Shown one piece after another: positions 10,184-11,383 of a stretch of 64,000 nucleotides of DNA. The DNA lies in assembly GCF_000364445.2 (NCBI RefSeq), contig NZ_CP043538.1, positions 2,673,612 to 2,737,611 of the forward strand, written 5' to 3'. The notes under the pieces were generated by a model. It ran no database searches and was not told the origin of the DNA. It saw only the letters and a list, made by a program, of their open reading frames with translations. Position numbers and translations under genes: made by a program. The stretch's first letter is position 1. Each line of letters begins with the position of its first letter. The DNA is from Methylobacterium mesophilicum SR1.6/6. GTDB lineage: Bacteria; Pseudomonadota; Alphaproteobacteria; Rhizobiales; Beijerinckiaceae.

Positions 10184-10495
10184 TCACGCCGCGAGGGCGG
10201 TGGGCTGCGCGTCGCGGATGCCGAGGAAGCGCTCGACCTCGGGCAGGTCCGGGAAGGCGAGGAATTCCGGCCGCAACGGCTCGGGCAGACCCTCGAAGTT
10301 GAGCCCCGGGAACGCGTCGGGATGCGGATAGAGCTGCCAGGCCGCCCCGGGCTCGACCGGAGGGAACAGGATCGCCACCTTCTCGGATCCGAGGCGCACG
10401 ATCCGGGTCGGGCTGTAGGACAGCGTCTCGATGCTCCAGCTCTGGTGGGAGTCCCGGCGGGCCTTCATGGTGCGGCGGCTCGTCGCGCGATGCAT
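10184..10495 (-). CDS. Unknown 103-residue protein, second gene of SOS-boxed unit
   Basis: A protein of unrecognised family beginning MHRATSRRTMKARRDSHQSW, with an SGEK-less basic N-terminus and a proline-rich middle (LFPPVEPGAAWQLYPHPDAFPGLNFEGLPEPL). There is no membrane segment. A clear AGGAG lies about six bases before the ATG at 10495, supporting this start. It follows the phage-like gene by 38 bases on the same strand, so the two probably share the promoter with the SOS box. Function is unknown. Confidence 0.7.
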   Translation of the reverse strand: MHRATSRRTMKARRDSHQSWSIETLSYSPTRIVRLGSEKVAILFPPVEPGAAWQLYPHPDAFPGLNFEGLPEPLRPEFLAFPDLPEVERFLGIRDAQPTALAA

Positions 10496-10533
10496 GGCGG
10501 TCTCCTGCGGTTGGGGTGAAGGTGTGCTGAGGG

Positions 10534-11208
10534 TCAGGCGGCGCTGCGGCGCCCGGCCCGCTTCGGCCAGCCGAGGGCCACAAGGCGTGCCTTGGCGTAG
10601 TCGCGAACCTCGTCGCGGGTGCCGGCCGGCATCGTCGCCAGGATCGCCTGGGTGGCACCGTCCAGCATCAGGTCGGTGACGGCGTTGATCGTCTCGGCCT
10701 CGTCGATGCGGCGCTTGAGATCGCCCTCGGCCTCGGTGACCTCGTCGAAGGCGGCCGGCTCCTCGAAATCCTCGTCCACGGCCCGGACGGGGATCTGGTG
10801 CGCGCGGAACTCGTCGGCTTCCTCCTCGCTGTAGACGAGGCCGTGCAGCTCGATGAGCTTGAGGATCACGCGGTCCTTTCCGCGCTTCTCGGCCATGGCG
10901 TAGACGTAAGCCGCCTGCTTGCCCGAGACGCGGTAGTTCACGTTGACCAGCGCCTCGCCGAGCGACCACTCGACACGTTCGGTGCCGGGCTTCGTCCCCG
11001 GCAGCCGGCCGGTCACCAGGATCACGGCCTCGTCCCGCTCGGCGCGGATGATGGTCGGCGGCTCGAACACGATCCCGGCCTGCGCGGCGATGCGCTCCAG
11101 GGTCTTGTGATAGATCACGGCCGTGCCCTGCACGCGCCAGACGTTGCCCCCGAAGGGCTCGCCGTAGCGGACGAGGATGTCGGCGATCTGCTTGTCGGCG
11201 GTTCGCAT
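10534..11208 (-). CDS. Phage-like protein under a probable LexA operator
   Basis: A 224-residue soluble protein. The core VWRVQGTAVIYHKTLERIAAQ, the strand VEWSLGEA and the segment AMAEKRGKDRVILKLIEL followed by VYSEEEADEF resemble an uncharacterised family I associate with phages and prophages of Rhizobiales. The C-terminal half is acidic and helical. The start is ATG 11208: the open frame continues to 11340, but that would place the SOS box at 11272-11286 inside the gene. A role in DNA repair or single-strand annealing is speculation from the SOS box and a loose similarity of the A-EKR-KDR helix to recombination mediators. No other phage genes are adjacent. Confidence 0.75.
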   Translation of the reverse strand: MRTADKQIADILVRYGEPFGGNVWRVQGTAVIYHKTLERIAAQAGIVFEPPTIIRAERDEAVILVTGRLPGTKPGTERVEWSLGEALVNVNYRVSGKQAAYVYAMAEKRGKDRVILKLIELHGLVYSEEEADEFRAHQIPVRAVDEDFEEPAAFDEVTEAEGDLKRRIDEAETINAVTDLMLDGATQAILATMPAGTRDEVRDYAKARLVALGWPKRAGRRSAA

Positions 11209-11271
11209 GCGGGGCTCGTACCGGCGGGAGGAGGCCGCGCCGTCCACAGCTTTGTTGGACGACGCGCTTTT

Positions 11272-11286
11272 GTTCTCTTTTTGTTC
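11272..11286. promoter_or_regulatory. Alphaproteobacterial SOS (LexA) box
   Basis: GTTC at 11272-11275 and GTTC at 11283-11286 are separated by exactly seven bases (TCTTTTT), the direct-repeat LexA site known in Alphaproteobacteria. Read on the minus strand it is GAACAAAAAGAGAAC, 63 bases before the ATG at 11208 and just after a TTGCGC / CATATA promoter-like pair, which is where LexA would block transcription start. The local AT-rich patch stands out against the surrounding GC. Confidence 0.7.
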
Positions 11287-11383
11287 GTATCTATATGCGT
11301 AATCGGCCGGTCCTGCGCAAGGGGCGCGCTCGCTCCACATCCGACCGCGTCGCGCCGAGGCGGACGCCGTGGTCGGGCCGTCT

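Follow-up and report, generated by a model that had tools for sequence, protein, structure and literature searches.

The window analysed here is a stretch of 64,000 nucleotides of the Methylobacterium mesophilicum SR1.6/6 genome (G000; 6.56 Mb, one contig). It carries two adjacent genes on the reverse strand, here called P1 and P2, which are preceded by a putative LexA operator (SOS box). P1 encodes a predicted Rad52-fold single-strand annealing protein (SSAP), and its nearest named relatives are Methylobacterium proteins of 96-97% identity. The features of the locus, all on the reverse strand, are as follows.

11315..11320, reverse: -35-like promoter element TTGCGC, read from the sequence; a TTGCG-type element recurs at the same distance in the window's clade.
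11292..11297, reverse: -10-like promoter element CATATA, read from the sequence; most sequences of the window's clade also have CGCATATA.
11272..11286, reverse: putative LexA operator (SOS box), over the expected transcription start and conserved upstream of P1.
10534..11208, reverse: P1, predicted Rad52-fold SSAP, 224 amino acids, from sequence relatives and fold prediction.
10774..11208, reverse: N-terminal annealing-protein-like part of P1, residues 1-145, predicted.
10573..10746, reverse: C-terminal helical domain of P1, residues 155-212.
10184..10495, reverse: P2, 103 amino acids; in 26 of 27 loci in the genus an SOS box, exact or with one base changed, lies at most 1 kb upstream.

The forward-strand letters of the box are GTTCTCTTTTTGTTC, which in gene sense read GAACAAAAAGAGAAC. 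P1 runs from an ATG at 11208 to a stop at 10534. Longer frames offered by the open reading frame (ORF) tool (268 and 261 amino acids) were rejected as unsupported, with most relatives aligning from residue 1 at ATG 11208. The box lies 63 bp before P1, and P2 starts 38 bp after P1; on re-reading, these coordinates and gaps agreed with those of the initial annotation of this DNA. The promoter-like sequence that it had placed ahead of the box was found as TTGCGC-N17-CATATA (11320-11292), with 5 bp separating the -10-like element from the box.

The box by itself proves nothing, as the GTTC-N7-GTTC pattern occurs once in the window against an expectation of 1.01, which is the chance level. Genome-wide the pattern was found 138 times versus 66 for the reversed control, and the stricter form GAACAWAHNNNGAAC 12 times versus once, with the box at 11272-11286 among the 12. 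Conservation was examined in 80 loci from bacterial contigs (chromosome or plasmid, unsorted), the best of 97 picked by likeness to P1, in which related species are not independent. In 67 of the 80 the exact box was present no more than 350 bp ahead of P1, and a one-base-changed form, AAAC-N7-GAAC, within 160 bp in another 10; two loci had no box upstream of P1 and one had too little upstream sequence. Shuffling the upstream sequences 500 times gave a mean of 0.67 loci with an exact box (maximum 4 of 80), and box density was 3.32 per kb upstream of P1 versus 0.06 per kb across the remainder of these loci. The operator is thus above chance because of its conservation ahead of P1 relatives, and a chance box is ruled out by the shuffling and the density contrast. 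The initial reading of the site as a LexA box survived this comparison.

Every box found upstream of P1 reads GAAC..GAAC in gene sense. In most Microvirga loci there are two, near -88 and -282, and most of these loci have a TATAGA resembling a -10 element that extends into the operator; for the window's clade, the operator begins a few bases past CATATA. Promoter layouts vary between clades while the operator stays. A second P1 copy, without SOS box, occurs in Methylorubrum suomiense (L078). Among phage relatives of P1 with at least 300 bp of upstream sequence the box was absent (0/79), which is a weak control because phage genes often sit inside longer operons.

The same operator occurs at lexA and other SOS genes of this genome. 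The lexA gene has its own box, GAACACTTGCGGAAC, and the genes beside GAACAWAHNNNGAAC sites include two imuA-like genes (both scoring below the NCBIfam cut-off), ruvB, and genes of the dnaE, radA, dnaB and topB types; ruvB lies behind a DUF6894 gene at its SOS box. The operator ahead of P1 is also found at lexA, the imuA-like genes and ruvB. The exact box was not found in the recA stretch examined. As judged from an operator that lies at the promoter region, is conserved and is common to lexA, the P1-P2 pair is probably part of the LexA (SOS) regulon. P1 has the same GTTC/GAAC direct-repeat operator as the alphaproteobacterial LexA regulon (lexA, imuA, ruvB), the partial text of PMC6473078 giving GTTC and GAAC as LexA operator consensus groups. 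P1 differs from that regulon in being a phage-annealing-type gene under a LexA box; titles and abstract openings of the open-licence literature showed no annealing-type gene among the SOS-regulon members of Alphaproteobacteria.

The identity of P1 was approached through its family, which comprises 1762 proteins at E ≤ 0.001. P1 had no match in Pfam (E ≤ 10) and matched no PHROG family. Many relatives carry the NCBI name 'trna delta-isopentenylpyrophosphate transferase', but the sole NCBIfam match of P1 was MoaA (E 0.025, 13.7 bits versus a cut-off of 231). With only this sub-cut-off match and none in Pfam, a tRNA dimethylallyltransferase or other tRNA-modification enzyme was rejected, and by profile comparison the NCBI name is unsupported.

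A fold search with the predicted P1 structure ranked RAD52 closest. Residues 1-145 are predicted to form, in order, a helix, a beta-hairpin, a helix, a three-stranded sheet and a long helix that holds the conserved AMAEKR-KDRVILKL motif. A beta-hairpin with a three-stranded sheet crossed by a helix is what defines the Rad52 superfamily, and the predicted fold has this arrangement, in line with the Rad52/22-Erf-Sak3 superfamily as defined in the part of PMC11783212 available. The sequence profiles do not support the assignment. The superfamily's Pfam models PF04098, PF04404, PF03837 and PF06378 match none of 44 P1 family members at E ≤ 0.5, hhalign of the family against Sak, Erf and Red-beta was negative, and the 25 PHROG families shown (of 48) for family members included no SSAP. 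The earlier guess of a Rad52/ERF/RecT-type annealing protein is thus borne out by the fold searches and by none of the sequence profiles tested.

That P1 is of phage type, as first proposed, is supported by relatives in IMG/VR contigs and in named phages. A tree was computed from the first 170 residues of 60 out of 194 proteins (150-330 amino acids, <88% mutual identity). In it 18 bacterial and 12 phage-contig copies form one weakly supported group (84/80) that sits inside otherwise phage diversity. One origin is not demonstrated because the bacterial/phage label changes 5 times on the tree; one or a few transfers are possible on this topology. A cyanobacterial phage relative (L111, Pseudanabaena phage Pam5) is ~60% identical to alphaproteobacterial P1 over residues 5-140, which suggests that transfer between phages has been wide.

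On the host side, the ratio of nonsynonymous to synonymous substitution rates (dN/dS) was 0.05-0.17 in 11 pairs of bacterial P1 genes and 0.20 and 0.30 in two phage pairs, values by which bacterial P1 is under purifying selection. Sampled genomes with a P1 match numbered 33 of 298 for the family, 5 of 397 for the order (including 3 from the genus) and 2 of 385 for the class, the last two being the window's genome and one weak match. Eight neighbouring proteins were tested on both flanks of the pair: a CLC channel, a PCMT-like methyltransferase, a polyprenyl synthase, a DUF2007 protein, two methyltransferases, a cytochrome c assembly protein and an SRP54-type GTPase. All are ordinary chromosomal genes and none is a phage gene, consistent with the earlier statement that no phage genes surround the pair. 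Synteny around the pair extends to 20 of the 80 relatives, each of them a Methylobacterium. Since the tested neighbours are chromosomal and the locus is syntenic, it is unlike a prophage relic, and the initial proposal of domestication is supported.

The genes that accompany P1 differ between phages and hosts. The phage scan covered 112 of 151 ORFs adjoining P1 in 31 phage loci (the shortest were mostly omitted), with tallies shown for 25 of 28 Pfam and 25 of 110 PHROG families. Genes near phage relatives include those for SSB, NinB and a YqaJ/RecE exonuclease, the company also seen for the Rad52/22-Erf-Sak3 superfamily, and among the families shown there was no other SSAP. The YqaJ exonuclease gene lies near or adjoins the P1 relative in some phages and one plasmid; an annealing-protein-like gene by an exonuclease gene recalls lambda Red and RecET. 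Host P1 differs from these systems in having a helicase gene (recD2) as neighbour instead of an exonuclease gene, and a host promoter with a LexA box; the operator likewise sets bacterial copies apart from Rad52/22-Erf-Sak3 phage proteins.

RecD2 is a 5'-3' helicase. In 37 of the 80 bacterial loci P1 is followed, ~20-220 bp on and in the same orientation, by the start of a RecD2-like gene, a count based on tblastn likeness to two model-tested RecD2 genes and on extrapolated starts. In the three loci tested with model TIGR01448 (L051, L064 and L100) the match was far above cut-off. Where recD2 directly follows, the gene order suggests that P1 is probably made together with RecD2. In two Aurantimonadaceae loci (L092, L094) the RecD2-like gene is upstream on the opposite strand, behind a gene divergent from P1. 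Other arrangements have recF and recQ upstream of P1 (13 loci, Methylorubrum and near relatives), ssb upstream (L046, L051, L052, L055), P1 followed by P2 (20 loci of the window's clade) or P1 followed by P2 and gyrA (L056-L059 and L073); in 16 of the 80 loci P1 adjoins neither recD2 nor P2. The window genome's recD2 is at 3.9 Mb, away from P1, and no exact box was found in the stretch examined there. In Methylobacterium oxalidis the ssb gene (L051:4132-4838) has its own exact SOS box and lies ahead of P1 and recD2. A gene of ~230 amino acids divergent from P1 was seen at L100:4030-4722 and in Microvirga and Aurantimonadaceae relatives, with its start by the second SOS box near -282; further upstream are an SMC-like gene and a metallophosphoesterase-looking gene, the latter matching no family.

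The search for P2 covered 59 genomes of the genus and a protein collection. It was present in 27 of the genomes, and the collection held 40 relatives, of which the named ones are from Methylobacterium except for one metagenome-assembled genome labelled Parafilimonas terrae. Upstream of P2, within 1 kb, the exact box occurred in 19 of the 27 loci and the AAAC variant in 7; the one locus without box is a weak match with 311 bp upstream. P2 lies behind P1 in 19 of the 27, and in 7 others P2 is preceded by a box of its own, with no P1 in the ~1.5 kb covered on each side. Boxed both beside and apart from P1, P2 therefore appears by these comparisons to be an SOS gene independently of P1. Its predicted model is a small beta protein with a predicted local distance difference test (pLDDT) score of 73 and no convincing structural match.

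In five loci (L060, L065, L074, L075 and L077) P2 is 2.6-3.1 kb beyond P1, past recD2. A fixed two-gene unit was thus rejected: of the gene pair first described, the adjacency and the SOS box stand, but P2 adjoins P1 only in part of Methylobacterium and is separable, and recD2 follows P1 instead in 37 of the 80 loci. A DUF6894-like gene lies between box and P2 in 6 of the 7 P1-free loci. Small DUF6894 proteins were also observed directly behind SOS boxes before ruvB (G000 3928187, L209) and before P2 in other Methylobacterium (L065:8245-8508), the identity being tested in L209 and L065 and the other cases assigned by likeness; a similar small frame, again by likeness, is opposite an imuA-like gene (L203:1094-1336). 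From these positions DUF6894 may be an SOS accessory family.

The explanation that we favor, with a probability of about 0.74, is that P1 is a phage-derived Rad52-fold SSAP that Methylobacteriaceae and some Aurantimonadaceae have retained as a repair gene of the SOS response, and that it probably helps to mend broken DNA under the host's damage alarm. Operator conservation, SOS context, phage kinship, purifying selection and gene partners come from comparison, the fold from prediction. We infer that LexA, bound over the transcription start, would hold P1-P2 off by repression. Damage induction would follow when RecA-coated single strands trigger self-cleavage of LexA, and the operon would be expressed. 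P1 would then bind and oligomerise on single-stranded DNA that resection or a helicase has exposed and, perhaps in joint work with RecD2 and SSB, anneal complementary strands or protect their ends, beside or instead of RecA, with P2 as a small accessory SOS protein. A more specific proposal is tentative: a host-owned, SOS-induced, RecA-independent annealing pathway in which a domesticated phage SSAP of an undescribed family works with RecD2 in place of the phage exonuclease, and with P2 and DUF6894 as SOS accessories.

A close analogue is DdrA of Deinococcus radiodurans, in the accessible text a radiation-induced Rad52-family protein that protects 3' ends and for which no annealing was detected (PMC515370). 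It belongs to the radiation/desiccation response motif (RDRM) regulon, with DdrO proposed as its regulator (PMC1978522, in part). Like DdrA, P1 would be a host Rad52-family protein in a damage-induced repair regulon (PMC515370, PMC1978522); they differ in that an RDRM motif precedes DdrA (PMC1978522) and a LexA box precedes P1. A further difference is that Rad52-group Pfam models miss P1; the two proteins were compared by description. P1 might accordingly be a LexA-controlled protector of DNA ends or single strands that shields ends and loads or blocks other repair proteins without annealing. The activity profile reported in part for DdrA (PMC515370) and the common predicted fold class make this conceivable, though the genes near phage relatives (YqaJ/RecE exonuclease, SSB and NinB) are those expected around an annealing protein, and the families shown included no other SSAP, so that we consider it unlikely. 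Lower still we place a P1 that acts under SOS control mainly against or with mobile DNA, by blocking or aiding phage recombination or by integrating incoming DNA, rather than in repair of the cell's own breaks; the phage origin of P1 and the targeting of phage recombinases by antiviral systems (PMC11846896, in part) speak for such a role, while the genes recognised next to relatives are recD2, recQ, recF, ssb and gyrA-like ones. A leftover prophage gene beside a chance LexA-like box, as the phage type of P1 and the one box per 64 kb expected by chance might suggest, is very improbable and largely refuted by the synteny common within groups of relatives, the low dN/dS in all 11 bacterial pairs and the non-phage neighbours, besides a box kept in 67 of 80 bacterial loci and in none of the 79 testable phage relatives.

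Most known annealing proteins come from phages and eukaryotes. If the reading of P1 as an SOS-controlled SSAP is true, bacteria associated with plants and soil would have, in a conserved LexA-controlled SSAP, an additional, inducible means of annealing within their SOS response, and RecD2 would gain a candidate partner. The tRNA isopentenyltransferase name on many P1 relatives would be corrected, and naming this large family, which the Pfam scans made here did not recognise, would help phage annotation. P1 would also be a natural candidate for recombineering in Methylobacterium.
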